Source of the DNA: Pelagibius sp. Alg239-R121
GTDB lineage: Bacteria > Pseudomonadota > Alphaproteobacteria > Kiloniellales > Kiloniellaceae
NCBI RefSeq assembly: GCF_947331435.1
Contig: NZ_CAMZOF010000013.1
Location: 1-64,000 of the forward strand
Length of the DNA: 64,000 nt
Reading direction: 5' to 3'
The notes below the pieces were generated by a model, which saw only the letters and a program-made list of their open reading frames with translations, was not told the DNA's origin and did not search any database. Position numbers and translations under genes: made by a program. Numbering within the stretch: position 1 is the first letter of the stretch; the number at the start of each line of letters is the position of its first letter. Of this stretch, positions 26,818 through 55,028 are shown one piece after another.

Positions 26818-26905
26818 TTTGGGCAAATTCGGATCATTGGGTACGTGCCACGGTCGCTGCAGACACACCGTCGGGAGCGTGCCTCGCTCGAAGATGGAGG
26901 AAAGC

Positions 26906-28072
26906 ATGACGGCCTGTATTGTGGGTTGGAGCCATACGCCTTTTGGCAAACACGAAGATGACGATGTCGAGTCCCTGATTGCCAAAGTCGCCCTGCAGGC
27001 ACTGGAAGACGCCGAGCTGGGTCCCGACGATGTCGATGAAATTCTGGTGGGTCACTTCAACGAAGGCTTTTCTCCTCAGGCGTTTCCCGCCTCCCTGGTC
27101 TTGCAGACCGACGATCGCTTTCGCTTCAAGCCGGCAACCCGGATTGAGAATGCCTGTGCCACCGGTTCGGCGGCGATCCATCAGGGCATCAAATCGATCG
27201 ACGCCAAGCACGCACGGGTCGTGCTGGTGGTCGGCGTCGAGAAGATGACCGCATTGGCAGGCCGGGAAATCGGCAACACTCTGCTCAAGGCCTCTTATCT
27301 GAAGGAAGACGGGGAGATTGAAGGCGGCTTTGCCGGTGTCTTCGGTTTGATCGCACAGAAGTATTTCCAGAAATACGGCGATCAGTCCGACGCCTTGGCC
27401 GCGATCGCCGCAAAGAACCACAAAAACGGCGCACTGAATCCCTGGGCGCAGATGCGCAAGGATCTGGGATACGACTTCTGCCGCAATGTCTCTGATAAGA
27501 ATCCGATAGTTGCCGGCCCCTTGAAGCGCACCGACTGTTCGCTGGTTTCCGACGGCGCGGCCGCCGTTGTTTTGACGGATGTTGAGACCGCGCTGACCAT
27601 GAAGAAGGCGGTGGTTTTCCGTTCGGCGGTTCAGGTCAACGACTTCCTGCCGCTCAGCAAACGCGATATCACCCTCTTCGAAGGCTGCAAGACCGCATGG
27701 CAGAAGAGTTTCGAGAAAGCCAAGGTCGGCCTGGACGACCTGTCGCTGGTCGAGACCCACGACTGTTTTACGATCGCCGAACTGATCGAATACGAGGCCA
27801 TGGGTTTGGCGCCGGAAGGCCAGGGCGCAATGGCGATCGCCGAAGGCTGGGTTCAAAAGGATGGAAAACTGCCGATCAACGCCTCGGGCGGTTTGAAAAG
27901 CAAAGGCCACCCGATCGGAGCGACCGGCGTATCCATGCACGTTCTCTCGGCGATGCAATTGACCAATACGGCCGGTGACATTCAGATCGACAATGCAAAA
28001 TTGGCTGGAGTCTTCAACATGGGCGGGGCAGCGGTTGCAAACTACGTGTCGATCCTGGAACCTCTGCGTTAA
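26906..28072 (+). CDS. Thiolase / acetyl-CoA acetyltransferase (SCP-x type)
   Basis: A 388-aa thiolase-fold protein. The nucleophilic cysteine lies in RIENACATGSAAIHQGI (residue ~87) and the active-site histidine in INASGGLKSKGHPIGATG. The C-terminal NMGGAAVANYVSILE lacks the second cysteine of classical degradative thiolases, which is usual in SCP-x-like members. It probably cleaves a branched or cyclic 3-ketoacyl-CoA. The start is set by GGAGG nine bases before ATG 26906; the upstream extension is not coding. It is followed by an acyl-CoA synthetase and two DUF296 genes in one operon. Confidence 0.88.
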   Translation: MTACIVGWSHTPFGKHEDDDVESLIAKVALQALEDAELGPDDVDEILVGHFNEGFSPQAFPASLVLQTDDRFRFKPATRIENACATGSAAIHQGIKSIDAKHARVVLVVGVEKMTALAGREIGNTLLKASYLKEDGEIEGGFAGVFGLIAQKYFQKYGDQSDALAAIAAKNHKNGALNPWAQMRKDLGYDFCRNVSDKNPIVAGPLKRTDCSLVSDGAAAVVLTDVETALTMKKAVVFRSAVQVNDFLPLSKRDITLFEGCKTAWQKSFEKAKVGLDDLSLVETHDCFTIAELIEYEAMGLAPEGQGAMAIAEGWVQKDGKLPINASGGLKSKGHPIGATGVSMHVLSAMQLTNTAGDIQIDNAKLAGVFNMGGAAVANYVSILEPLR

Positions 28073-28116
28073 GCGGGCCTGCCGGAGACCAGGGCTGTAT
28101 TGACGAAGGGAAACAG

Positions 28117-29724
28117 GTGAGAGAGACGAATTCCGTCATGAACCTGGGGCATTTTCTGACCCAGGCAGCGCGGCGCTACAGTGACAGGACAGCGCTGGTT
28201 TGGGGGGACGAGTCCTGGAGTTGGGCGGAGCTTGGTGCCCGCGTGGACGCTGTGGCCGCCGGACTGAGCGCGCGCGGCATCGGCAAGGGCGACGTGATTC
28301 TGGTCATCTCCCGCAATTCGAACCAGATGTTCGAATCCATGTGGGCAGCTTTCAAGCTGGGCGCGGTCTGGGTGCCATGCAACTTCAGGCTCACGCCGCC
28401 GGAAGTCGCCTATTTGGGATCGGCGAGTGGTGCCAGGGTGATGCTCTACGAGCCGATTTTCGCCGAGCATGTTGACGCTGTGCGCAGGGAGTCCTCGGGG
28501 CTTGAGCAGGTCATTTCCATCGGGTCTGCGCGCGAAGGCGAACTGGAATATGCGACGCTTGTGTCTGAAAACCTTGGGACGGCTTTTGCCGAGGCCGAGG
28601 TCGAGCATGACGACCCCTGCTGGTACTTCTTTACCTCGGGGACGACAGGACGCTCCAAGGCGGCGGTGCTGACCCACGGCCAGATGTGTTTCGTCGTCAA
28701 CAACTACCTTGCCGATCAGATGCCCGGATTGGGGCCCGATGCGGCGTCTCTCATTGTCGCACCGCTCTCGCACGGTGCGGGCGTCCATGCCATGCCACAG
28801 GTTGCCCGCGGCGCGAAGTCGGTGCTTCTGCCGGGCACCAGCTTTGACGAAGAGGTCGTCTGGCGCCTGATCGAAGAGCATCGCGTCGCAAACATGTTTA
28901 CCGTGCCGACGATTTTGACCCGCATGGTCCGGCACCCTGCCGTCGACCGCTACGACCATTCGTCCCTGCGGCATGTCATCTACGCCGGTGCGCCGATGTA
29001 CCGCGAAGACCAGGTCGCGGCGCTCAAAAAAATTGGCAAGGTCATCGTCCAATATTACGGCCTCGGCGAGGTGACGGGCAGCATCACCTATCTGCCGGCC
29101 GAAATTCATTCGATCGATGATGCGCAAATGCCGGTCGGCAGTGTCGGGTTTGCCCGCAGCGGCATGGAGATCACCATCAAGAGCCTCGAAGGCGAGATCC
29201 TGCCTGCCGATGCGCGCGGCGAAATCTGCGTGCGCGGTCCGGCGGTCTTTGCCGGGTATCTCAACAATCCCGAAGCCAACGCCAAAGTCTTCAAGGAGGG
29301 GTGGTTCCACACCGGCGATCTCGGATATCTGGATGCACGCGGATTTCTCTATCTGACGGGCCGGGCGTCCGACATGTATATTTCGGGCGGCTCGAACGTC
29401 TATCCGCGTGAAGCGGAAGAGGTGCTCCTGACCCATCCAGGCGTGGAGGAAGTCGCGGTCCTGGGGGTGCCCGATCCGAAATGGGGCGAGGCCGGTGTGG
29501 CAGTCGTGGTCAAATCGCCGGCATTTGAAACCAGGGGGCTTTCGGCGGCGGAACTTCTGGGTCATCTGGAAGGGAAGCTCTCGCGCTACAAGCTTCCGCA
29601 AACCTTCGTGTTTTGGGATGAACTGCCGAAATCCGGATACGGCAAGGTGCCCAAACACCTGATTAGAGAGCAGCTCTACGCCCGCGGAGATTTAGCTGCG
29701 GCGAACGGCGGTAAGGAACCATGA
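28117..29724 (+). CDS. Acyl-CoA synthetase / AMP-binding ligase
   Basis: A 535-aa ANL-superfamily ligase that activates a carboxylic acid with ATP and CoA. The P-loop motif is WYFFTSGTTGRSKAAVLTHG and the A5 region is VQYYGLGEVTGSITYLP. A7 is YLTGRASDMYISGGSNVYP, and the C-terminal catalytic lysine lies in LPKSGYGKVPKH. The substrate is unknown but is likely the precursor of the thiolase substrate. The GTG start at 28117 has AAGGGA upstream; ATG 28138 is an alternative. The stop overlaps the next ATG. Confidence 0.9.
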   Translation: MRETNSVMNLGHFLTQAARRYSDRTALVWGDESWSWAELGARVDAVAAGLSARGIGKGDVILVISRNSNQMFESMWAAFKLGAVWVPCNFRLTPPEVAYLGSASGARVMLYEPIFAEHVDAVRRESSGLEQVISIGSAREGELEYATLVSENLGTAFAEAEVEHDDPCWYFFTSGTTGRSKAAVLTHGQMCFVVNNYLADQMPGLGPDAASLIVAPLSHGAGVHAMPQVARGAKSVLLPGTSFDEEVVWRLIEEHRVANMFTVPTILTRMVRHPAVDRYDHSSLRHVIYAGAPMYREDQVAALKKIGKVIVQYYGLGEVTGSITYLPAEIHSIDDAQMPVGSVGFARSGMEITIKSLEGEILPADARGEICVRGPAVFAGYLNNPEANAKVFKEGWFHTGDLGYLDARGFLYLTGRASDMYISGGSNVYPREAEEVLLTHPGVEEVAVLGVPDPKWGEAGVAVVVKSPAFETRGLSAAELLGHLEGKLSRYKLPQTFVFWDELPKSGYGKVPKHLIREQLYARGDLAAANGGKEP

Positions 29725-30284
29725 CGGAATTGTCGCAGAGCATCGAAGGTAAAGCATCGCGCCGCCGCGTCACACAGCCCGGCGCTCCGCTGTCACCCCG
29801 CCGGCTCTGTGTCTGGGCGGAGACGGGGCAGGAGCTGCGGCTTATCCTTCCCGAGGGCGCCGATTTGCTCAAGGACCTCGCCGCTGCGCTGTCAGCCAGA
29901 GGCATCAAAAGCGCGGCGATACAGATGCTTTCCGGCAGCTTCGGCAGGGTAAGCTACTTTACAGGCATGATCGATGCGACAGGGGCGCGGGTCGCGACCT
30001 ATGGCGCGCCGCGTGAACTGAGCGGTCCCGTAATGCTTCTTGGGGCAAATGCCGTCTTCGGGCGCAGCGAGGCCGGCGAGCCTCTGGTTCATTGCCACGC
30101 TGTCATGGTGGATACCGAAGGCCGCGTCCATGGCGGGCACCTGCCTCTGGAGGGCTGTATTCTGGGCACCGAAGGGGCCGTGATCATGATTGCGCCTCTG
30201 GAAGGCGCTGGTTTCGAAGTTTCCTACGACAGCGAGACCAACTACAGCCTGTTTCACCCTACGGCATCGGTACCCGTAAACTGA
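29721..30284 (+). CDS. PPC/DUF296 domain protein (metal-site intact)
   Basis: A 187-aa PCC/DUF296 protein. The family core spans RLILPEGADLLKDLAAAL to VHCHAVMVDTEGRVHGGHL. The HXH plus a later His in GGHL form the presumed metal site of this trimeric family. The first ~30 residues are basic and probably disordered. The biochemical role is unknown. It overlaps the synthetase gene by four bases (ATGA), so it belongs to the acyl-CoA operon. A second, divergent copy follows. Confidence 0.85.
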   Translation: MTELSQSIEGKASRRRVTQPGAPLSPRRLCVWAETGQELRLILPEGADLLKDLAAALSARGIKSAAIQMLSGSFGRVSYFTGMIDATGARVATYGAPRELSGPVMLLGANAVFGRSEAGEPLVHCHAVMVDTEGRVHGGHLPLEGCILGTEGAVIMIAPLEGAGFEVSYDSETNYSLFHPTASVPVN

Positions 30285-30352
30285 CGGCCGCAGGCTCAAG
30301 ATGTACGCGCACCAATGCACAAAAGCCGGTGGCGCAGCTTCAGGGGAAGGAG

Positions 30353-30775
30353 ATGGAAGTGACCGCAACAAGGATCGAGCAGGGGGCTTATGGCCGTTCC
30401 GCGATCATCCGTCTGCGTCCCAACGAGGACCTGGTCGAAGGTGTCGAACAAGCTTGCAGGGAAAACGGGATACTGCACGCGGTTGTCCGTTCCGCGGTGG
30501 GAAGCCTTGTCGACGCGGTGTTGAGTTACGGTGGTGCCGACGATGAACGTACCGTCTCCGCGCGGGGGCCGGGAGTCGAGATTCTCACCCTGGCCGGCGA
30601 GATCGCCCCCGGAGCGGATGGGCATCCCCGGGCAAATCTGCGCGGCACCATTTCGACTCCGGACGCGCGTGTATTAGGAGGCCGGTTTCTCAGCGGGCAG
30701 AATTCAATCTGCATCACCCTCGAGCTGGTTTTGCAGGAATGGTTGCCTGAAACAAAGGCTGCACAACCGCAATAA
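30353..30775 (+). CDS. PPC/DUF296 domain protein (metal-site lost)
   Basis: A 140-aa second DUF296 protein: AIIRLRPNEDLVEGVEQACR, NGILHAVVRSAVGSLVDAVL, EILTLAGEIAP and DARVLGGRFLSGQN. Where the first copy has HCH and GGHL, this one reads ANLRG and GGRF, so the metal ligands are gone. GTG 30359 has AAGGAG at an ideal six-base gap; ATG 30353 is the other choice. Tandem intact and degenerate copies suggest mixed oligomers. Confidence 0.8.
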   Translation: MEVTATRIEQGAYGRSAIIRLRPNEDLVEGVEQACRENGILHAVVRSAVGSLVDAVLSYGGADDERTVSARGPGVEILTLAGEIAPGADGHPRANLRGTISTPDARVLGGRFLSGQNSICITLELVLQEWLPETKAAQPQ

Positions 30776-31072
30776 ATTTGTATACTAACGGATAATATTG
30801 CGCGAATGAACGCAGATACGTGATGTGCTAATCAAAAATTAACCATCGATGTTGTTGATTCATTAAGTTATTAATGACATCGCAGCTGTTCACCTCTGGT
30901 GGAACGGCTGCATGTCTGTGGCGGAAGGCACGGTGTGCGGTTCAAGTGAGCTCTTAAGAGCGTTAACAATACCTTTAGGCTGTTTCGTGTATTTGTATCG
31001 AATGCTTTTGGGTCCTCGTCGTCGGGGCCGTCGATTGGGGGCGAGGGTGTATCTGATGCGAGTGACTGCTTG
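30776..31072. other. Upstream region of the sensor-kinase pair
   Basis: A 297-bp AT-rich gap with no convincing gene. It contains a perfect 12-bp palindrome GCTCTTAAGAGC at 30950-30961 and GTTAAC immediately after. It probably holds the promoter of the two kinases. Confidence 0.5.
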
Positions 31073-32671
31073 ATGTCGATAATCGTCGTTATAGACGATC
31101 GCGTTACCAATCGTCGGGTTCTTGAGAAACTCGCGTCCTCGATTGGCGACAACATCACGGTAAAGGCTTTTGCCGAACCGCAGGCTGCGCTCGAGTGGTC
31201 GAAGAGCAATATCCCCGATCTCGTTGTCACTGATTTCAAGATGCCGAAGATGGACGGCGCCGAGTTCATCCGGCAGTTCAGGGAACTGCCGCCCTGTATC
31301 GATGTGCCGGTGATGGTCGTTACCGCATACGAGGATCAGGCATTTCGTTATGCCGCCCTGGAATCAGGCGCGACCGATTTCCTGCTGAGCCCTGTGGATC
31401 ATCACGAATTCCGGGCCCGCTCGCGGAATCTGCTCAGTCTTCGTGAACATCAAAAGCTCCTGAACGAACGCGCGATCACCCTTGAGCGCCGTTATGAAAA
31501 GGATACCGACCAGCTCGAACGGGCCCTGACGGAAAGTCACGAACGCCTGCTTCTGGTCATCGATGCCGTTCCGGCAATGATTTCCGCGACGACGGCGGGC
31601 GCGCGCTACGCCTTTATGAACAACTATCAGGCTCAGCTCTTCGGTGTCATTCCGGATGAAGCCGTCGGACGCACGGCGATGGAGCTCCTGAACAACGACT
31701 ATGCCCGGAATTCCATCGCTTTGGACGAGCGGGCTTTCGTGACCGGCGAAGCGCCGTCCTTGTTCGAAGAAGAGTTCGTCACGGTCAACAAGGTCAAGCG
31801 TATCTTCCTGACCTCAAAATCCCTGGTCCGGGATTCGGGCGGACAGGTCACCAACATCGTGACTGTGTCGTTCGACATCACCGAGCGGAAGGCCGCAGAA
31901 CAGCAACTGATACACGCCAAAGAACTGGCCGAGGTTGCCAACCGCAGCAAGACCGAGTTCCTGGCAAACATGAGCCACGAACTGCGGACACCTTTGAACG
32001 CCATTATCGGCTACGCCCAGGTGATCGGCACCGAGTTGCTCGGTCCGGTCGGGAACGATAAATACGGCGATTACGCGCGAAACATCGAGGAAAGTGGAAG
32101 CCTGCTGCTGCACATCATCAAGGACATCCTCGATGTCTCGATGATCGAGGCGGGAACCATTGAGCTGCATGAAGAGCCTGTCGATCTGGCGACGCTGGTG
32201 GATGACGTCTTGCGTCTTGCCGAGGAACGGGCCGCCGCTGCACGCATTGCGATCCGGACGGAAATTGAGCCGGACGTCCCGCTCCTGACCGTCGACCCGG
32301 TCAAGGTTAAGCAGATCCTGCTTAATCTTGTGGTCAATGCGCTCAAGTTCACGCTCGTAGCCGGACAGGTCACGGTGGCGGTGCGCCGGGCGGGTGACGG
32401 GGTTGAAATCGCGGTAACCGACAATGGCGTCGGCATGACATCCGAGGAAATCAAAGTTGCCGTGACCCGCTTCGGACGCTTGAGAAATTCAGAGACTCAG
32501 GCCGTTCCTGGTACTGGTCTCGGGTTGCCGCTCTCGATCGATCTGACCGAGCTGCATGGCGGCAGGTTGGAGATTGAGAGTGAAAAGGGAGTAGGCACAA
32601 CGATTATCGTTCTGTTCCCCCACGATAGAATTATGGAAGAGCCGCCGGACGAGTTGAGCGTTGGCGGCTGA
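31073..32671 (+). CDS. REC-PAS-histidine kinase
   Basis: A 532-aa soluble kinase with an N-terminal receiver domain (acidic pocket IDD at ~8, phospho-Asp ~54 in VVTDFKMPKMDG, Lys replaced around LSPVD), a coiled-coil linker, a PAS domain at ~165-275, HisKA (NMSHELRTPLNAIIGYA, His ~302) and HATPase_c (NALKF, DNGVGM, GTGLGLPLSI). The receiver lacks the conserved KP lysine, reading LLSPVDHHEF, so signalling by phosphorylation there is uncertain. The frame opens with TTG directly before ATG. It ends 13 bp before the hybrid kinase gene, so both are co-transcribed. Confidence 0.9.
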   Translation: MSIIVVIDDRVTNRRVLEKLASSIGDNITVKAFAEPQAALEWSKSNIPDLVVTDFKMPKMDGAEFIRQFRELPPCIDVPVMVVTAYEDQAFRYAALESGATDFLLSPVDHHEFRARSRNLLSLREHQKLLNERAITLERRYEKDTDQLERALTESHERLLLVIDAVPAMISATTAGARYAFMNNYQAQLFGVIPDEAVGRTAMELLNNDYARNSIALDERAFVTGEAPSLFEEEFVTVNKVKRIFLTSKSLVRDSGGQVTNIVTVSFDITERKAAEQQLIHAKELAEVANRSKTEFLANMSHELRTPLNAIIGYAQVIGTELLGPVGNDKYGDYARNIEESGSLLLHIIKDILDVSMIEAGTIELHEEPVDLATLVDDVLRLAEERAAAARIAIRTEIEPDVPLLTVDPVKVKQILLNLVVNALKFTLVAGQVTVAVRRAGDGVEIAVTDNGVGMTSEEIKVAVTRFGRLRNSETQAVPGTGLGLPLSIDLTELHGGRLEIESEKGVGTTIIVLFPHDRIMEEPPDELSVGG

Positions 32672-32684
32672 AAAAGTCCGCTAG

Positions 32685-35624
32685 ATGGCGAATGATCGCG
32701 ACATAACACGGGACCCATCGATAGGGCAGCCATCGGAACAGACGGCGGTCAAGGCTCCCGCCATGGCGGCTCCAAAGTCCTTGGATAAGCGCACCCGTAT
32801 CGCCTTCGTCGGTTTGATGGTCACGGCTTTTGCCAGTATCGCGCTGGTAGCCGGCCCACTCTGGGTCACCGGTCGGCCCCCGACCGAATGGCCGCTTGCG
32901 GCCCTCTTGCTGATCGTATTTCTGTTAGCCACACCGATTGCGCTGGCCCTGGTTTGGTGGCCGCGGCGGTATGTCGTCGATCAGGTCTTTGCCCGGCGGC
33001 CGGACAGCGAACACGAGCAGGCAACAATCCGGATGGCGCTGGGCGGCGTTGCCATGCTCTACCTCTCGGTTGCGAGTCTGTACCTCGATGCCGATGACGG
33101 GCTTCAGCAGGCGGCAACAGCCATGGCGTGGGGACTATGCGTCGGCTGGCTGGCTCTTTTGCATATCGTCGTGTCGCCAGGGCAATCGACCCCCCGCCGC
33201 GGTGCGATGGCCATGGTGGATCTGCTGACCCTCAGCTACATGCTGGCGGTCGGCGGCGGTCCCGCTTCGGTGCTGTTTCCGATCTATCTCTGGGTCACCT
33301 TCGGCAACGGTTTCCGCTACGGTGTCAGCTTCCTGGTCTTTTCGGCCGGTATCAGTGCCTTCGGCTTCGGCGGTGCCGTTTTGACCAGCAGCTATTGGTC
33401 GAGCAACAGCTTCGTCGCCTATGGCCTGCTCATTTCGTTGATCGTGCTGCCGGCTTACGTTTCGACCCTGATTAAAAAACTCAACAGAGCAAGAGCCCAG
33501 GCCGAGGAAGCAAGCCAGGCCAAGAGCCGCTTCCTCGCGACCATGAGCCACGAGCTGCGGACACCGCTCACGGCGGTTATTTCGACCGGCGACCTGTTGG
33601 AGACAACTTCTCTTGATGCCGATCAGCGCTCGATGGTTGGCACGGTCCGGGCTTCGGCGAAGGCCTTGCTGTCGCTGATCAACGAAATTCTGGACCTGTC
33701 GCGTATTGAGGCAGGTAAGCAAAACCTGGATATCGGCCATGTCGATGTCTGCGAAGTCGTCTCGTCGGTTTGGCGTATGCTGCATGCACAGGCCGAGCAA
33801 AAGGGTTTGCATCTGCGCGTTTCTCTGGATGCCCGCCTTCAGCGCGGACTGAGCGGTGACACCAAACGGCTGATGCAGATTCTGGTCAACCTGGTGGGAA
33901 ACGCCATCAAGTTTACCGGTGAGGGCGAAGTTGAAATTTCCGCCTGTCTTCTTGAGACCAAGGGGCGCCAGGACTGGGTCCTTTTCTCCGTCCGGGACAC
34001 CGGGATTGGCGTGCCGGCCGAAAAACTGGGATCGATTTTCGAAGGCTTTACTCAGGCTGACGATGCGATTAACAGGCGCTATGGCGGTACCGGACTGGGA
34101 TTGACCATCACAAAGCAGCTCGTCGAGATGATGGGCGGGGAAATTGAGGTTCTGAGCGAAGAGGGGCAGGGCAGCCAGTTTAATCTGACCATTCCGTTCG
34201 ACCTGCTGTCATCCGGCGCCGACTCGAGCAGTGAGACTGAATCCGAGAGCCCGGACGTCGCGGGTCCTGCTGCCGGGCATTTGCCGGTCGTCGTTTGTGT
34301 GCCGGCCCCCCGGCGGGCGCAAATCATGGCGGCCCTTGATAGCACGGTGACAACGGCGGCCGACGGCATAGACGAAGCTGTGTCCGCGATCGAGGCCTAC
34401 CGGGATCAGGGGCATGTGATGATCGCGGCCGATGCTGTCGAGCGCGACGGGCTCTCGGGGCAACTGCTTCGTTATCTTGAAGACCGCGGCTCGAACGATG
34501 GTATTGCCCTTGTCGAAGTCTCGTCCGGTGATCAGCAGACCGGTGTTGAACGGGTCTGGCCCGTTGATGTGGTCATTGCCAGCCCGCCAACCGAGAAAGC
34601 TTTCTCGACGGCACTGCATCAGGGCGGTCTGTTCTATTCGTCGGGATTGTCGAAGTCCGGAGAGGAAGAGGGTGCCGAAGGTGATGCGGCTTCCGAGCCG
34701 GTTCCCAGTCGCCGCATTCTGCTGGTCGACGACAACCGTACGAACCGCCGCGTGATCTCGCGTGTTCTGGAGAATGCCGGGCACGTTGTGGAGACGGCTG
34801 AAAATGGCGACGACGCTCTGGACCGCCTTGACGTCGATGCGTTCCATATTGTCCTGACCGATATCAACATGCCGGGGACCAGCGGTCTGGATTTGACCAA
34901 GATGTACCGGGTTCTTCATGCCGATGAGCCTCATATGCCCATCGTCGCCCTGACCGCTGATGCCACAGAACAGGCAAAGCAGGATTGCCGGGATGCAGGC
35001 ATGGACGGCTTTTTGACGAAGCCGGTTGAAGCGCAGCAACTCATAGCGTTGGTACGGGAGTTGACGGCTGGTGCGGTTGGCCTGGACGATGCCCAATTCC
35101 TTGAGACCCTGTCACCGGATTCACCAGATCGCACGGCGCCAGAAGAAGCGTCTCTAGGCGCGGAGGAGGCCGGCGCAAGTCAAACGCAGGCGCCGGCGCG
35201 CCCGCCGCAGCTGATAACCCCTATATCGGCGCACCCGAAGTACGGAGGGGCGTCGAACGAGCCGGTGCTCGATCCGGACTCCGTCGACGCGCTGCGTGCC
35301 CTGGACAGCGATCATGCCTTCATGGCGGAGGTGTTCGATGACTTCCTGGCCGACGCCGCGGCAACCATGGTCAATCTGAACGATGCCTTCGACAACGGCG
35401 ATCTGGCGGCGTTTCATGACGAGGCCCACGCCCTGCGCAGCAGCGCAGGCTATGTCGGCGCCAAGCGTATGGTCAGGCTGTTGCTTGATATGCGCGAGTT
35501 CGGACCCGACCGGGACAACAAGCGCACGCGCGAACTCTTGAGCGCGCTCAGTGAAGAATTCGAAATGGTGCGGGTGGCCGCGGGCCAAGAAGTTTCTGAG
35601 ACGCGCAGGGCAACGCCCTTATAG
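32685..35624 (+). CDS. rpfC: RpfC-like hybrid sensor kinase
   Basis: A 979-aa membrane hybrid kinase. Residues ~38-265 hold several membrane helices, including the RpfC-like LAVGGGPASVLFPIYLWVTF. HisKA follows (TMSHELRTPLTAV, His ~289), then HATPase_c (NLVGNAIKF, RYGGTGLGLTIT). Next come a receiver-like segment without a phospho-site (~520-640), a full receiver (ILLVDDNRTNRRV; Asp ~726 in VLTDINMPGTSG; TKP) and a C-terminal Hpt domain (AHALRSSAGYVGA, His ~914). This order matches Xanthomonas RpfC, the DSF sensor. The convergent neighbour is an rpfF-like gene. In Xanthomonas the RpfC receiver also restrains RpfF; whether that holds here is inference. Confidence 0.82.
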   Translation: MANDRDITRDPSIGQPSEQTAVKAPAMAAPKSLDKRTRIAFVGLMVTAFASIALVAGPLWVTGRPPTEWPLAALLLIVFLLATPIALALVWWPRRYVVDQVFARRPDSEHEQATIRMALGGVAMLYLSVASLYLDADDGLQQAATAMAWGLCVGWLALLHIVVSPGQSTPRRGAMAMVDLLTLSYMLAVGGGPASVLFPIYLWVTFGNGFRYGVSFLVFSAGISAFGFGGAVLTSSYWSSNSFVAYGLLISLIVLPAYVSTLIKKLNRARAQAEEASQAKSRFLATMSHELRTPLTAVISTGDLLETTSLDADQRSMVGTVRASAKALLSLINEILDLSRIEAGKQNLDIGHVDVCEVVSSVWRMLHAQAEQKGLHLRVSLDARLQRGLSGDTKRLMQILVNLVGNAIKFTGEGEVEISACLLETKGRQDWVLFSVRDTGIGVPAEKLGSIFEGFTQADDAINRRYGGTGLGLTITKQLVEMMGGEIEVLSEEGQGSQFNLTIPFDLLSSGADSSSETESESPDVAGPAAGHLPVVVCVPAPRRAQIMAALDSTVTTAADGIDEAVSAIEAYRDQGHVMIAADAVERDGLSGQLLRYLEDRGSNDGIALVEVSSGDQQTGVERVWPVDVVIASPPTEKAFSTALHQGGLFYSSGLSKSGEEEGAEGDAASEPVPSRRILLVDDNRTNRRVISRVLENAGHVVETAENGDDALDRLDVDAFHIVLTDINMPGTSGLDLTKMYRVLHADEPHMPIVALTADATEQAKQDCRDAGMDGFLTKPVEAQQLIALVRELTAGAVGLDDAQFLETLSPDSPDRTAPEEASLGAEEAGASQTQAPARPPQLITPISAHPKYGGASNEPVLDPDSVDALRALDSDHAFMAEVFDDFLADAAATMVNLNDAFDNGDLAAFHDEAHALRSSAGYVGAKRMVRLLLDMREFGPDRDNKRTRELLSALSEEFEMVRVAAGQEVSETRRATPL

Positions 35625-35654
35625 CGCTGACGCCCTTATCGCGCTGACGCCCTT
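35613..35654. repeat. 17-bp tandem repeat over the rpfC-like stop
   Basis: ACGCCCTTATAGCGCTG is followed by ACGCCCTTATCGCGCTG and by a third partial copy ACGCCCTTG. The first unit contains the last codons and stop (TAG) of the kinase gene. Confidence 0.8.
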
Positions 35655-35690
35655 GATTGGCTCATCCTTTCGTTTTTCCCGTCTTCCAAC

Positions 35691-35742
35691 AGAAACAGCT
35701 CCGAAGTCATCGCATACGCGTTGCGCTTCGGAGCTGTTCCGT
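35691..35742. terminator. Long hairpin between convergent rpfC-like and rpfF genes
   Basis: AACAGCTCCGAAG (35694-35706) pairs perfectly with CTTCGGAGCTGTT (35726-35738). The stem extends outward (CAAC/GTTG) with a small bulge, and the loop is 19 nt. It lies midway between the two convergent stop codons and is a likely bidirectional terminator, though it lacks a clear T-tract. Confidence 0.6.
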
Positions 35743-35809
35743 TGTCTCGAAGAGGCCTGCTATGGAGAGACAGACTCTTTCTCAAAAATATCCCGCTGCC
35801 GCTGCGTCG

Positions 35810-36823
35810 TCAGGCAGACTTCAGAACCCGGTTTCGGCGTCGGTCCTGAGCCGAGACCAGACGGCCCATTTTCTTCAGATCGGCTTCGTCCAGCGTCATG
35901 GCCGTTTCGACCCAAAGATCGGTGATATCCATCATCTCTTTCAGGGTCACCGGATTGATGCGCTGACGGGCCTGGAAGATCGCACGGTGCGCTGCGTGCC
36001 GCCGCTCGTTCTTGGCAACATACTGATGAAGAGCTTCTTCGCCGTGGCCGTCATCGGCCAATACGTCGACGACACCCATCTCGTATAGCTCTTCGGCGGT
36101 GTAGAGGCGTCCAGACATGATCATGCGTTCAGCGCGGCCGGGTGCAATCCGGCGTGACAGAAAGCTGTAGGCGCCCATTCCGGGGAAGAGACTAAAGAGG
36201 ATTTCCGGCAAACCGAACTTTGCACTGCGCTCAGCCACGATCACGTTGCTCGAGAGTGCGGCTTCGAACCCGCCGCCCAGGGCATCGCCTTGAATTAGGG
36301 CAACTGTGATGATGGGAACGTTCAGGCTGGTCCAGTTGGCGTAGCCTTCACGAACCACCCGATAGGCATACTCGCGCAGCTTCTCGCGCTCCTGGTTCTG
36401 GATCAGCTGAGAAAACAGACTCAGATCGCCACCCAGGTTCCACACGCCCGGCATCCGCGAGCCCCAGACAAGATACTTCAGCTTGCTGCTGCGTCCGTTG
36501 GATTTCTCGTACCACGAGCGAATGCTTTGCTGGACCTTGCCAATGTCGTTCAGCAGGGCGGGGGTAAAGCTTGGGCGGTCTTCGAAGTCGAACCAGCAGG
36601 TGCAAATCTCATCCCGCCCGGAAAAAACCACATCGATTTCATCAAGGTTCAGACTGGCGAGTTCATCCTTGATATCCGTCGACCGATCCGCCATCGCGCG
36701 CTTAACAGCGGTGCGGGCTTTTTCCGTGGCCGACGATGACAACGAGGATCGGTGGTCAAAGAGTGAGTTTGGTGAGACGTCTTTCTCTACAGTTTCAGCT
36801 GCCGTGCTAAGCTGTTCGAGCAT
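35810..36823 (-). CDS. rpfF: RpfF-like DSF synthase (crotonase family)
   Basis: A 337-aa crotonase. RpfF makes cis-2-unsaturated fatty acid signals by dehydration and thioester cleavage of 3-hydroxyacyl-ACP. Family blocks are LVWGSRMPGVWNLGGDLSLF, LIQGDALGGGFEAALSS and FGLPEILFSLFPGMGAYSF, plus a C-terminal LKEMMDITDLWVETAM. The two glutamates corresponding to RpfF Glu141 and Glu161 are present as Glu187 and Glu207 with the same 20-residue spacing. An N-terminal extension of about 50 Ser-rich residues is unlike classical RpfF (~289 aa). ATG 36823 has GGAG upstream. Other crotonases (enoyl-CoA hydratase) are the alternative. Confidence 0.85.
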   Translation of the reverse strand: MLEQLSTAAETVEKDVSPNSLFDHRSSLSSSATEKARTAVKRAMADRSTDIKDELASLNLDEIDVVFSGRDEICTCWFDFEDRPSFTPALLNDIGKVQQSIRSWYEKSNGRSSKLKYLVWGSRMPGVWNLGGDLSLFSQLIQNQEREKLREYAYRVVREGYANWTSLNVPIITVALIQGDALGGGFEAALSSNVIVAERSAKFGLPEILFSLFPGMGAYSFLSRRIAPGRAERMIMSGRLYTAEELYEMGVVDVLADDGHGEEALHQYVAKNERRHAAHRAIFQARQRINPVTLKEMMDITDLWVETAMTLDEADLKKMGRLVSAQDRRRNRVLKSA

Positions 36824-37795
36824 TCCTGTTCTCCATATCAAAATTCAAGCGGTCTACCGGGTCTCGCCAACCGGCATACTCGCGGCGGGTTAGTTTCCAC
36901 CCCGACCAGCATACCTTGCACTACATGCTGCCCTTTTTTCCTCGGGAATGGAAAAACTAGATTCAAATTTTATCAAATTATAACACTTCATTTTAGGATT
37001 TTTTTCCGTTAAGTGTTAACGCCTCAGTGTTGGTTGATCAGATCGCTTTACGGTTAACCAAATTAGTTCATCTCTTCTCTCTTACGCATAAGCATTTGGA
37101 ATTGCGCTAAATCCTGTTAACCATTTGCCCAATCTACAGAAATATATCTGAATTCCTAGTCGGGGAATACGCGTATTGCGAGTTGTTGCGGGATCTCCAA
37201 AGCGATGAAATGGGATAAGATTCATCTTTTGTCCGATTCTGCGAGTCTCGTTCGCATGCGATAAGATAAAGTTCCTGTGTTGTGCGGCCTTTTTTGCGGT
37301 TATTTCGTCTGAACACAAACGAGTATGTAAAGAGAGTCTTAAATTTTAGTAAATATTTCGTTAATTATTAGGGTTAATGGCCGAGTATTTTTGTGTCATC
37401 GCTGCGCGGCATGGTCGTATGACCAAAAAACACTGGATACTTTAGTCGAATTTCCTTTTACGCGTTATTTGGAAATATAAAACGCCTTAAAGGTGCATGT
37501 TTTCCCTGGAATTTAGTTCGAGAAGTTAGCTTGCTGATAGAAGCTGATGAGTGCGGGAGTTTCTCATATTTACATAAAAGATTTGTATTGAAATAATTTA
37601 CTACATGATTAAATGTACAATATGAGATTTGCACAAAGCATTGTGTGAAATAGGCTCTGCGCAGGCGTAGGCTGCACATTAAGCGTCTTCCGGCTTTGAG
37701 GAGGTGCTTTTTTCAGACAGCCGGCCGAGGGGTTAAAACCGGCGTCCAATGGACGCGAAACTGGATGACGAGATGATGGTCGGGGTCGAATTGAA
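36824..37795. other. 972-bp AT-rich intergenic region
   Basis: This is the longest gene-free stretch, between the divergent rpfF and cysG genes and strikingly AT-rich for this genome. Open frames in it are short and lack domain signals. Visible structure: CGTTAA, GTG, TTAACG (37007-37021), a nearby GGTTAACC, and several other TTAAC motifs. Closer to cysG is the small hairpin GCGTCCAATGGACGC in a purine-rich leader. It should carry both promoters and might encode a small RNA, which I cannot show. Confidence 0.55.
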
Positions 37796-51247: not shown

Positions 51248-51874
51248 ATGAGTGAAGTCACAGCTATCGGGCGGCCGAGGAAGTTCGAGGAACAAACCGT
51301 TCTTGCCGCCGTCATGGATATTTTTTGGGAAAAAGGCTTCGAAGGTACCGCCATGAGCGACCTGGTAGAGGCGACCGGCTTGCAGAAGGGGAGCCTTTAC
51401 GGCGCCTTCGGCGACAAGCGGACTCTCTATCTCAAAGCGCTCGCTTTTTACGACGAAACCGAAGTTGCTTTGGCGGTTGATCTCTTGAGCGGCAAGTGTG
51501 GCGGCTATGAATTGGAAGCGCCGGATGCCGGCTATCTTCGTATTGCCGCCCTGTTGCAGGCGGTCATCGATGCGGTGTCGGTGAAAGGCGACCGCCGGGG
51601 GTGCCTGCTCTGCAACGCTGCGGTCGATCAGGCGCCGTTGGATTCGGCCACCGAGCGAAGCGTGACCGCGAGCCTGGAATGCATGGAAGAGGCCTTCCTT
51701 GAAGCCGTGCGGGCCATACCCGACTTTGTGGCTTCGGTGTCGGAAGGCCGCCGCACCGCGCGGCATCTTCTCTCGGTCTACTTCGGGATGCGGGTTCTCG
51801 CAAAATCAGGCGCGCCGGTCGCCATCATGGATGATGCTAAATCAGGTGCTCTGAAGGGATTGCATCCGCTCTAA
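51248..51874 (+). CDS. TetR-family regulator
   Basis: A 208-aa TetR protein. The HTH is in VLAAVMDIFWEKGFEGTAMS and DLVEATGLQKGSLYGAFGDK. The ligand domain contains DRRGCLLCNAAVD with two cysteines, as in redox- or electrophile-sensing NemR-like members. It likely represses itself and the divergent DM13 gene. Its stop overlaps the stop of the convergent fusion gene by four bases. Confidence 0.9.
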   Translation: MSEVTAIGRPRKFEEQTVLAAVMDIFWEKGFEGTAMSDLVEATGLQKGSLYGAFGDKRTLYLKALAFYDETEVALAVDLLSGKCGGYELEAPDAGYLRIAALLQAVIDAVSVKGDRRGCLLCNAAVDQAPLDSATERSVTASLECMEEAFLEAVRAIPDFVASVSEGRRTARHLLSVYFGMRVLAKSGAPVAIMDDAKSGALKGLHPL

Positions 51875-54800
51875 TCGACGACGTCCCCGAATGCCTGGTC
51901 AAGAACCTCCAGCAAAAGACTTGCATGCTCTCGGGAAAAGGTCATGGCGGGCCGCATCTTGATCACATTGTCATAGGGACCATCGGTTCCCGCGAGAACG
52001 CCCCGCGCCTTCATTCGTTCCACCACACGCCCTGCGGTATCACTGTCGTGTGCTTTGCTTGTCCGGTCCGAAACGATGTCCAGGCCAAAGAACAGGCCTT
52101 CACCCCGAACGTCACCGATTGCATCGTATTTCTGCTGTAGTTGGCGAAAGCCCGACAGCAGGTAGTCGCCGATGATCCGGGCATTCTCCAGCAGATTTTC
52201 CTGTTCCAGCGCGTCGAGCACAGCAAGCCCGACAGCGCAGGACACGCTGTTGCCGCCGAAGGTATTGAAGTATTCCATGCCGCTGTCGAATGAAGCCGCA
52301 ATCTCCGGTGTCGTGACCAGCGCGGCCATGGGATGACCGTTGCCGATCGGTTTGCCCATGGTGACGATATCGGGCACGACATCGTGTCCCTGGAAAGCCC
52401 ACATATGCCTGCCATTGCGGCCAAATCCGACCTGGACTTCGTCGGCGATACAGACCGCACCGGCTTCTCGCGCATGGCCATAGGCGGCCGAAAGGTAATC
52501 CCGGGGCAGGAAAACCTGGCCGCCGACGCTGGGGATTGTCTCGGCGATGAAGGCCGCCGGGCTCTTGTTCCGGCAGGCCAGCATCTGCGCGATGGATCTG
52601 ACCGGTTCGGCGTAACGGCGCCCTAACTCTTCGGAGGGCCAGTCATCCGGCGCGCGGTAGGTTTCAGGTAGGGGGACCTCGTGAACATGTTCCGGCTGCC
52701 CATGGCCGCCCTTGCGTTTGTATTTGTAGGGGCTGACTTCGATCAGCGGAGCCAGATGGCCGTGGTAGGCCCAATCGACTACGATGACGTCGCTTTGCCT
52801 GGTGTGGGCGCGGGCCATACGCAGGGCCAGGTCGTTGGCCTCGCTGCCGCTGCAGACAAAGTAACATACGCTCAGGGGATCGGGGAGTGTGCTCGTCAGA
52901 CGTTCCGCATAGTCGATAAGGCCATCCTGCAGATAACGCGTGTTGGTGTTCAGTTTCGCCGCCTGTTCGCTCAACGCACCAACGACACCCGGATGTGCGT
53001 GCCCCAGATGCGCAACGTTATTGTAACAGTCCAGATAAGCGCGGCCCTGATCATCGATCAGCCAGACGTCTTCACCCCGGACGATTTTCAAAGGATTATC
53101 TTTGTAGGAAACACTCAAATTGCTGCCCAGACGCTTTCGACGCTGCTCGAGCAGTTCTTCCGCCGAGCGGCCGCTGCGGCGGAAGGTTTCCGGCGGCAAA
53201 CCTGCAAGCGTCGAGGGATCGGGATAGAACTGCCGCCAGACGTCCATGAAGCGTGCCTCGCCGGCGCCGGGGACGTCACGGGCGTCGGTCACGGGGTGGG
53301 TGACGATCTGCAGGTGCAAATGCGGGATCCATCCGCCGTTTTCATTTGGGGCGCCCAGTTCGATAAATGCGTCACCCTTGACGAGTTTCTGTCCTACTTT
53401 GAGCGCTTTCACCGGAGCATGAGCCTGATGGCCCCAGAGGGTATGGAAAACGACTCCCGGTACGGGTTCATGCTTGAGCAGAACGACCCCGCCGTAATCC
53501 TGGTGATCAGGGATGATCCGGCAGTCGACCACTTCGGCATCCAATGGCGTCATAATGGCTGTGCCGGCAGGCGCAAAGAGATCCAGCCCCAGGTGAACGT
53601 CACGCCGGTCGCCCTCACAGAGTTTCGACTTGAACATATCGACGGTGTAGACGACCCGGCGTTCGCCCCACAGGCCAATGCCCAGATCGAAGGCTTGTTC
53701 GTCCTTGACCTCGTTCCAGATCTTGTCGGCGAGATTGATATCCGTCGTGGACATGGCGCGGGTGAAAGGGAGATCCGGGTTGCTTGCTTCCAGTACCCGC
53801 TTCGCCTGCATCGACGCCCTCGGGTCGATGACCGGTGCCAGGTGCCGACGGTTTTCGTCGATCCATTCCGTAACCGCGCTGGCGCCCGGCACGGCGTCAT
53901 AGCCGCAGGCCGTGCGGAATATTGCGCGTGCGATCAGGGGATCGATGGCGTCCAGGCGTTCCAGCAGGTCCCAGGCGGGCCGCTCGCTGACGGCGAGATA
54001 AGGTTCGTCGGTGACGCGGTCCCGGCGCGAGGCCGACATGGTCACGCTGGTACAGAGGCGGCCGATGATCAGGTCGAACAGCAGGTCCAGCTCGATTTCT
54101 TCGAGCGGATAGCTTGCATGGTACCCGCGCAGGACGTCTGCTGCGGCCTCTAGCGGTGAGGCCTGGTCGAGCATGGCGTAGGCACAGGCAATGGCCAGTT
54201 CGGCGATAATGATGGAGTGGGTCACGTCGCCCAAGTCGATCAGTCCCGAGATCCTACCCTCGTTGTCGACCAGAATGTTCCAGTCGTTGGCGTCGTTATG
54301 AATGATGCCTGATCGCAGCCGGTTCAAATGAGGCCCGACGTTTTCTTCGAAGCGATCCAGAAAGCCGGATACAAGGGCGCGCTGTGCGTCGTTGGTGATA
54401 AAGTGCAGACGTCCGCGGGAGCGCAGAGCGGTGCGCAAATCCCAGTCGAAGGCCGCATGTGCGGCGGGGTGACCGAACCCGCGCAGTGTATGATCCACCC
54501 GCCCAAGCAAAGCTCCCAGTTCCGTCAGAACCGCCGGCGATTTTTCGACTTCCGCCAGGGGCGTTCCCGGAAGATAGCTGACGACGCGCAGAGCGTTCGC
54601 GGCGTCGCGATTTTCGTGCCTCTTGATTGAAGCGGAAGTCTCGCCGTTTCGAGTCGGAAGTACGCGGGGCAGGGGTAGAGTGGCATCAACCTCCTGCAGA
54701 TGTTTGAGTATCTGAATCTGCAAGTCCAGCCGTTGAAGGTCCTCACCGGCGTTTGCGATCTTGACGATATGGCACATGCCGTCAGCACCGGTCAGCCTGA

Positions 54801-54921
54801 AGTTCTGGTCTCTTTCACTCGGCAAAGGGTCCAAGGCACCGGTCAGCCCAAAGTGAAGGAAAAGAGCTTCGGCCACTTGCGTGGTCGAATAGCTGGGCAC
54901 AGGCGTGGTAAGACTGGACAA
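51871..54921 (-). CDS. Kinase / M23 / class III aminotransferase triple fusion
   Basis: About 1016 aa. Residues ~20-330 form an APH-type small-molecule kinase ([14 protein letters not shown] near 205, GLIDLGD). Residues ~430-560 form an M23/LytM-like domain with intact metal residues ([18 protein letters not shown]). Residues ~590-1010 form a class III PLP enzyme ([36 protein letters not shown] with the PLP lysine). The outer domains resemble hydroxylysine kinase and the phospholyases for phosphohydroxylysine or phosphoethanolamine, known to be fused in some bacteria. The middle domain's role is unclear. TTG 54921 has GGGGAG upstream; GTG 55002 is the longer option. An Lrp-type regulator is divergent. 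Confidence 0.85.
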
Positions 54922-55028
54922 GATAGGAACTCCCCAATGGGTTTGCAGGGAAATGATGTCACTTCGTCCCGGCGGTCGCGACCGCCATTCTGACCGGTTC
55001 ACCCGGCACTTTGACGGTTGGGCGATCG

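Follow-up and report, generated by a model that had tools for sequence, protein, structure and literature searches.

Does an alphaproteobacterium carry a complete diffusible signal factor (DSF) system, and through which protein would such a signal act inside the cell? The question is raised by a locus of Pelagibius sp. Alg239-R121, located in a stretch of 64,000 nucleotides (contig NZ_CAMZOF010000013.1, positions 1 to 64,000 of the forward strand; hereafter the window). Three adjoining genes fill positions 31073-36823, according to the list of open reading frames (ORFs) and Pfam: a receiver-PAS-kinase gene and a hybrid sensor kinase gene on the forward strand, and a crotonase gene on the reverse strand. 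A sequence-only reading had described the last two as a facing rpfC/rpfF pair, likely a self-contained unit of signal and sensor. Its ORF positions proved correct and its overall observation was confirmed, as regards the RpfF clade of the crotonase, the RpfC layout and the conserved convergent pair; its argument from the spacing of the catalytic glutamates and its two-gene unit were not upheld. The interval it described also covers the third gene, 31073-32671, which its text omits. We propose that RpfF, RpfC and a kinase effector with an RpfG-like receiver probably form a three-gene DSF-type autoinduction module. The features of the locus are collected in Table 1.

The crotonase is, as judged from its sequence, an RpfF-class enzyme and not a housekeeping hydratase. 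It contains Pfam ECH_1 and scores 358.0 bits against the NCBIfam model NF006452, over the cut-off of 177. A search of Protein Data Bank (PDB) sequences gave as best matches 7zq7 (E 6.6e-58), named as a crotonase/enoyl-CoA hydratase family protein, and the RpfF entries 3m6m (E 2e-56) and 6dgn (E 4.8e-47); a fourth match of the same kind is 5fus, and the next one reaches only E 2.6e-15. In a tree of 121 RpfF-class sequences and 11 ordinary hydratases the two sets separate at a starred branch (95), and the window crotonase stands with RpfF. The tree was made by a quick method, with long branches flagged for L089, L091 and L215 (L numbers designate loci), and its reference RpfFs come from xanthomonad-type loci, three of whose genomes pass the RpfF equivalog cut-off. 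The sequence blocks of RpfF are also present: PGMG occurs in 121/121 RpfF sequences versus 1/11 hydratases, and a GGDL-type block in 119/121 versus 0/11. The catalytic glutamates, E187 and E207, are invariant in 27 aligned sequences. Their spacing of 20 residues had been put forward as a mark of RpfF and was rejected as such: it is found by pattern in 111 of the 121 RpfF sequences, and 7 of the 11 ordinary hydratases have it too (3 by pattern and 4 read by eye in the alignment rows). It is thus the ordinary crotonase spacing and is not diagnostic.

The neighbouring sensor kinase has the full layout of RpfC. Pfam identified HisKA, HATPase_c, Response_reg and Hpt domains, the receiver matches the RpfC chain 3m6m_D with 81.1 bits, and the model supplies the helices of a membrane input region. 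By tblastn this input region is 28-37% identical to that of the xanthomonad-type RpfC of L202-L209, L208 aligning only over residues 161-262; a fold search of it against solved structures gave no match at E 0.001. Five residues that precede the first membrane helix of Xanthomonas campestris RpfC (R15, D17, S18, E19 and Q22) are required for DSF sensing, as stated in the part of the paper drawn on here (PMC5391125). All five are present in the window RpfC, as R105, D107, S108, E109 and Q112. A model of this part of the protein (mean predicted local distance difference test score, pLDDT, 82.7, with residues 1-16 unsure) places the motif directly before helix 109-133 and after two further helices; in many relatives it lies closer to the N terminus than in the window. 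The product of 32685-35624 is RpfC-like on these grounds, and we predict that it binds DSF.

The view of a self-contained two-gene unit gave way to that of a larger one, for most loci with RpfC have a third conserved gene. In the window this third gene stands where rpfG would be and encodes a putative effector. The gene order in the xanthomonad-type loci L202-L209 is a REC-HD-GYP gene, rpfC and a convergent rpfF (Pfam finds HD_5 and Response_reg in L202). In the window effector Pfam detects no HD-GYP output, and PAS_4-HisKA-HATPase stands in its place. The AlphaFold model of the effector (mean pLDDT 83.8) runs from REC through a helix (110-165) and PAS (168-268) to the kinase core, an arrangement that is unsure because the predicted template modelling score is 0.43. 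The effector receiver is 38-45% identical to the RpfG receivers of L202-L209. With the L202 RpfG receiver as query, the effector stands on top of 78 matches in the genome of the window, with 113.2 bits and 41% identity; the runner-up, a REC-GGDEF protein on another contig, reaches 96.6 bits with a slightly higher identity of 43%. A receiver tree of 78 rows places in one group (starred, 97) the receivers from the rpfG position, or slot, of 25 HisKA, 3 HisKA_2, 20 GGDEF-EAL and 7 HD-GYP loci together with the REC-GGDEF protein of the genome; outside it fall 15 RpfC receivers and a further 7 of the genome's receivers. The tree was computed by a quick method on 135 columns, with many inner forks unresolved and 34 of the 54 GGDEF-EAL receivers left out. 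The receiver homology, the top genome match and the tree grouping together suggest an effector assembled from an RpfG-type receiver and a different output. The runner-up in that search lies on contig C4 of G000 (L231:3211-6874), where a gene for an 892-amino-acid hybrid kinase is followed by one for a 321-amino-acid REC-GGDEF protein whose receiver retains the lysine discussed below.

DSF signalling had been considered much less established in Alphaproteobacteria. More than a few of them carry DSF-type genes: among 385 alphaproteobacterial genomes, 24 contain 25 matches over the NF006452 cut-off, and the listed scores then fall from 266.8 to 105.2 bits, no value lying between. Among the nearest relatives (41 genomes), an RpfF-class gene is found in 4/4 genomes of the genus, with E below 1e-190, and in 5/18 from other families of the order. 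We assembled 132 loci, of which 121 were distinct after merging RpfF at 97% identity (11 near-identical loci dropped); the set is biased, since 80 loci come from a list of the best 80 matches. Their records include Skermanella, Inquilinus, Roseomonas, Gluconacetobacter, Microvirga, Pseudovibrio, Sphingomonas and others. Some are labelled as other groups (for example L119, a Burkholderiales metagenome-assembled genome, and L121, Mycobacterium sp.), hence we term the loci alphaproteobacterial-type. The slot effector of the 121 loci is of GGDEF-EAL type in 54, HisKA in 25, HisKA_2 in 3 and HD-GYP in 7; in 3 its type is unclear, and in 29 no effector was found. In 82 distinct loci a receiver of the lysine-less type is present, the output joined to it being GGDEF-EAL (54), HisKA kinase (25) or HisKA_2 kinase (3). 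RpfC is present in five of the 29 effector-less loci (L093, L036, L038, L211 and L212), L093 being scored as lacking the effector although a kinase effector, truncated where the contig stops, is there. Among the 25 RpfF loci of the even class sample, the effector is of HisKA type in 16 (the window and G003 included), HisKA_2 in 1 and GGDEF-EAL in 1, with none seen in 7, three of which (L069, L086, L090) stop at contig ends.

The three genes keep together. When all frames surrounding rpfF were clustered for the 82 loci whose effector is of kinase or GGDEF-EAL type, three families recurred: the effector in 81, RpfC in 81 and RpfF in 80. As possession of an effector was the criterion for choosing these loci, the clustering is better evidence that no fourth gene is conserved than of how often the third occurs. 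Further clusters of 72, 66, 62, 57, 31, 23, 17 and 12 loci were considered as extra genes and rejected, being almost wholly shadow frames over the three genes. The convergent rpfC/rpfF arrangement recurs in distant families, which points to more than chance. Other contexts of RpfF-class genes were also observed. In L114:10007-12538 and L140:2695-5366 the crotonase is convergent with a glutamine synthetase gene and no RpfC was found nearby, and in L220:7018-10410 an alphaproteobacterial RpfF-class gene is convergent with one for a PAS_7-GGDEF-EAL protein, an RpfR-like arrangement.

The sensor residues are kept in most HisKA-kinase loci. Scored from the alignment column in the RpfC taken for each locus, all five are present in 21/25 distinct HisKA-kinase loci (Thr for Ser being counted, in L141). 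The equivalent of Gln22 is Gln in 24/25 HisKA loci, 7/7 HD-GYP loci, 2/2 HisKA_2 loci with RpfC and 3/54 GGDEF-EAL loci. Met, Ile or Leu stands there in 51 of the 54 GGDEF-EAL loci (for example L153, L107 and L164); the position is one that serves DSF sensing, the change runs through the whole clade, and another ligand is perhaps the reason. A coupling of this residue to the output type was rejected: on the RpfF tree the Gln changes once and the output four times, and there are too few pairs for an independent-pairs test, so we treat Gln22 as a clade marker. Two further variants of the sensor were seen. L101:13671-15663, L112:4142-5053 and L121:14594-15436 contain extra short ORFs that resemble the RpfC input region alone, with the sensor motif, and are reminiscent of rpfH; L202:6100-8832 (also L203 and L204) is an RpfC frame of 910 amino acids with apparently two successive input regions, whose motifs are RPDSEHGQ and REDSEHAQ.

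The effector receivers have lost a canonical residue. We aligned 91 slot receivers (25 HisKA, 3 HisKA_2, 54 GGDEF-EAL, 2 unclear and 7 HD-GYP; L123 was excluded for a mis-called frame). The acidic pair and the phospho-acceptor D54 are kept in 91/91, and T84 is Thr in all but one HD-GYP row, where it is Ser. At the lysine position, the 84 receivers other than HD-GYP have Ser (78), Thr (5) or Ala (1), and the 7 HD-GYP RpfG receivers have Lys (6) or Arg (1). As a control, Lys is found in 30/30 of the best-scoring of 107 Response_reg matches in the genome, a set that includes the window RpfC receiver and not the effector and that, being chosen by score, favours canonical receivers. CheY-type receivers without the lysine are expected to show an altered phosphoryl lifetime or altered coupling.

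By its predicted synthase and sensor the locus is DSF-type; by its effector it is not an RpfG system. In the proposed module, RpfF would make a cis-2-unsaturated fatty acid, as its family and catalytic residues suggest. RpfC would sense the acid beside its first core membrane helix through R-x-D-S-E-x-x-Q, residues that are all in place, and its domains would relay phosphate from HisKA to REC to Hpt. Homology and gene position point to the RpfG-like receiver of 31073-32671 as the phosphate acceptor. This receiver, with serine for lysine, would control the PAS_4-HisKA-HATPase kinase, which in turn may phosphorylate a response regulator encoded elsewhere. A hybrid response regulator such as LvrB of Leptospira offers the nearest mechanistic model for the effector. 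Direct binding of DSF by PAS_4 is plausible as a second input, because the effector unites an RpfG-type receiver, PAS_4 and a kinase, and RpfS, a soluble accessory kinase, binds DSF by its N-terminal PAS_4 according to the part of a review used here (PMC4504480).

Several observations weigh against the three-gene module. The crotonase scores 244.4 bits against the RpfF equivalog NF053515 (SgnlFctrSynRpfF) and does not reach its cut-off of 550, which is reached in 3/398 genomes of the phylum sample. The gene cluster is absent from 19/19 other genomes of the family, where the best E of 5.4e-15 is at the level of an ordinary hydratase; from these counts and those of the genus, the locus is fixed in the sampled genus and patchy around it. 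Four of the 25 HisKA-type loci (L070, L085, L097, L106) are without the full five sensor residues in the RpfC taken, L085 having a second RpfC with the motif RPDTEHQQ. L036, L038, L211 and L212 contain RpfC and RpfF with no such effector beside RpfC, upstream of which lie genes for an HK-REC protein, a histidine phosphatase, NnrS and an iron-sulfur assembly protein; L072 contains the effector and no RpfC was found nearby. No fourth conserved gene, such as one for a cognate response regulator, was found in the 82 loci, the largest outside cluster covering 11 loci. Compared with PDB sequences, the PAS gave no match to a known DSF-binding PAS and weak hits only, the best being BvgS. Finally, the loss of the lysine could mean that the receiver no longer signals by phosphorylation.

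This last point leads to another account of the same DSF module, which we consider unlikely: the lysine-less receiver would act independently of phosphorylation, as a docking platform for RpfC, and PAS_4 would be the real input, binding intracellular DSF as reported for RpfS. It draws on the replacement of the lysine by Ser, Thr or Ala in 84/84 kinase-type, GGDEF-EAL-type and two unclear slot receivers, versus Lys in the 30 genome receivers, and on the occurrence of PAS_4, which Pfam detects in 5/6 kinase-type effectors scanned (the window, L071, L072, L093 and L094) and in 5/5 GGDEF-EAL effectors scanned. However, phospho-independence would not need the acidic pair and D54, which every aligned slot receiver retains; PAS_4 was not detected by Pfam in L167, the L141 effector shows no PAS in the alignment, and the sequence comparison related the PAS domain to none known to bind DSF. 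Alternatively, the crotonase might make another acyl product or serve lipid metabolism, with the kinases sensing something else, an explanation to which we give little credence. The missed equivalog cut-off, the glutamine synthetase neighbours in L114 and L140, and an acyl-CoA ligase and a thiolase near the locus in the genus are consistent with it; linkage to an RpfC bearing the DSF-sensor residues, and the tree, where the crotonase stands beside xanthomonad-type RpfF and not with the hydratases, argue against it, as does the presence of an acyl-CoA ligase relative near only 6/82 loci. Least probable is a plain xanthomonad-type system with cyclic di-GMP (c-di-GMP) output through a separate protein and an incidental upstream kinase: the genome does have one HD_5 protein (a 734-amino-acid frame on another contig) and a second RpfG-type receiver, with its lysine kept, fused to GGDEF beside another hybrid kinase, but conservation across families ties the kinase gene to rpfC and rpfF, and no other receiver of the genome scores as high against the RpfG receiver.

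Comparison with known systems shows what the three-gene module shares and where it departs. With the RpfF/RpfC/RpfG system of Xanthomonas it has in common the RpfF-class crotonase, a convergent RpfC with a homologous input region, the five sensor residues and HisKA-HATPase-REC, and an RpfG-like receiver in the gene upstream of rpfC. It differs in its PAS_4-HisKA-HATPase effector in place of HD-GYP, the serine in place of the receiver lysine, the absence of an rpfH-like gene between the effector gene and rpfC, the two more predicted N-terminal helices of RpfC and an RpfF below the NCBI equivalog cut-off. Like the RpfF/RpfR systems of Burkholderia and Cronobacter, it has an RpfF-class synthase with a linked receptor, and a PAS domain in the effector. 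RpfR is a PAS-GGDEF-EAL protein, as described in the section of the review cited (PMC4504480), whereas the window has an RpfC-like linked sensor and a receiver-bearing kinase effector; the genes scanned on both sides of rpfF are of other kinds than RpfR, for which the rest of the genome was not searched. RpfS of Xanthomonas campestris (XC_2579) is likewise a histidine kinase with PAS_4, compared here by its description in the same section; its PAS_4 is N-terminal and its role accessory, whereas in the window a receiver precedes the PAS and the gene belongs to a conserved unit (PMC4504480). The slot effectors of REC-PAS_4-GGDEF-EAL type in other loci have the same kind of lysine-less receiver and RpfC and RpfF neighbours, and carry c-di-GMP domains, not a kinase. 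A fold search with the effector returned kinases of many kinds, and among its matches the hybrid response regulator LvrB of Leptospira (PDB 8vc9) is the closest architectural parallel, although its superposition on the effector model is poor (template modelling score below 0.4, root-mean-square deviation about 38). In LvrB, whose partner is LvrA, the receiver is N-terminal to the histidine kinase part, and no link to RpfF is known to us. Among the open-access matches listed, judged by title and the start of the abstract, no paper dealt with an RpfC/RpfF locus of Alphaproteobacteria or with an rpfG slot occupied by a kinase. For acidophiles, complete DSF systems are reported in Leptospirillum and Acidithiobacillus, and none is mentioned in Acidiphilium in the part of the paper drawn on here (PMC9040811); an Acidiphilium record is among our loci (L170), with RpfC and a GGDEF-EAL effector.

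Table 1. Features of the locus in the window, with strand and basis of assignment
Feature	Position	Strand	Basis
Effector ORF	31070 (TTG) or 31073 (ATG) to 32671	+	ORF check
Effector, REC-helix-PAS_4-HisKA-HATPase_c ('RK'), predicted hybrid response regulator/kinase	31073-32671	+	Pfam, model, position, REC homology
RpfG-like receiver; acidic pair, phospho-acceptor D54 and T84 kept	31082-31420	+	alignment
Ser106 codon (AGC), at the receiver-lysine position	31388-31390	+	alignments
PAS_4 of effector	31562-31891	+	Pfam PF08448
HisKA and HATPase_c core, residues 293-362 and 409-519 counted from 31070	31946-32626	+	Pfam
RpfC-like hybrid sensor kinase, 979 amino acids	32685-35624	+	Pfam; REC matches RpfC chain 3m6m_D; convergent with rpfF
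Two predicted helices, residues 35-62 and 70-103, ahead of sensor motif	32787-32993	+	AlphaFold model
DSF-sensor motif RPDSEHEQ, residues 105-112	32997-33020	+	residues equated with X. campestris RpfC
Membrane input region, about residues 109-262, common with xanthomonad-type RpfC	33009-33470	+	tblastn, model
RpfC receiver domain	34716-35054	+	Pfam
RpfC Hpt domain	35328-35573	+	Pfam, E 7.9e-9
RpfF-class crotonase, predicted DSF-family signal synthase	35810-36823	-	NF006452, PDB matches, tree
Catalytic glutamates of crotonase, codons of E187 and E207	36265-36263; 36205-36203	-	

The crotonase ORF has two start options, a TTG giving 35810-36841 (343 amino acids) and the ATG at 36823 (337 amino acids). 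By 4-kb bin, the guanine-cytosine content is 0.593 at 28001-32000, 0.601 at 32001-36000 and 0.558 in the bin from 36001, the range over all bins of the window being 0.558-0.604. ARAGORN found no tRNA in the window. Scans for promoters (2 found, 2.5 expected) and terminators (11 found, 7.2 expected, standard deviation 3.4) were not used as evidence. Upstream of the locus, at 26819-30775, lie genes for a thiolase, an acyl-CoA ligase (NF005676, 841 bits) and two tandem PPC-domain proteins, a region whose synteny is retained in the 3 same-genus genomes examined. Further away, 51871-55002 encodes a 1043-amino-acid protein uniting APH, Peptidase_M23 and class-III aminotransferase domains.

A wider reading, which we put forward tentatively and hold to be rather doubtful, is that Alphaproteobacteria run DSF through a separate effector family, in which an RpfG-derived receiver, with its lysine fixed as serine or threonine and mostly accompanied by PAS_4, is joined to interchangeable outputs (HisKA, HisKA_2 or GGDEF-EAL). 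The loss of the lysine would then give a long-lived or redirected phosphorylated state, and intracellular DSF would be bound by PAS_4, the outside and the inside signal thus meeting in a single protein; in the window, where the output is a second kinase, the c-di-GMP pathway would be replaced by a two-kinase relay. The two core DSF pathways, RpfC/RpfG and RpfR, end in the c-di-GMP proteins RpfG or RpfR, as set out in the part of the review consulted (PMC4504480). Here a modified RpfG-type receiver appears to tie a receptor and a synthase akin to the DSF core to a kinase and, in sister loci, to GGDEF-EAL. If this reading is true, the receiver, and not the output, would be the conserved part of these effectors, the loci would offer a natural test of what a lysine-less receiver does, and DSF-type signalling would reach many alphaproteobacteria.

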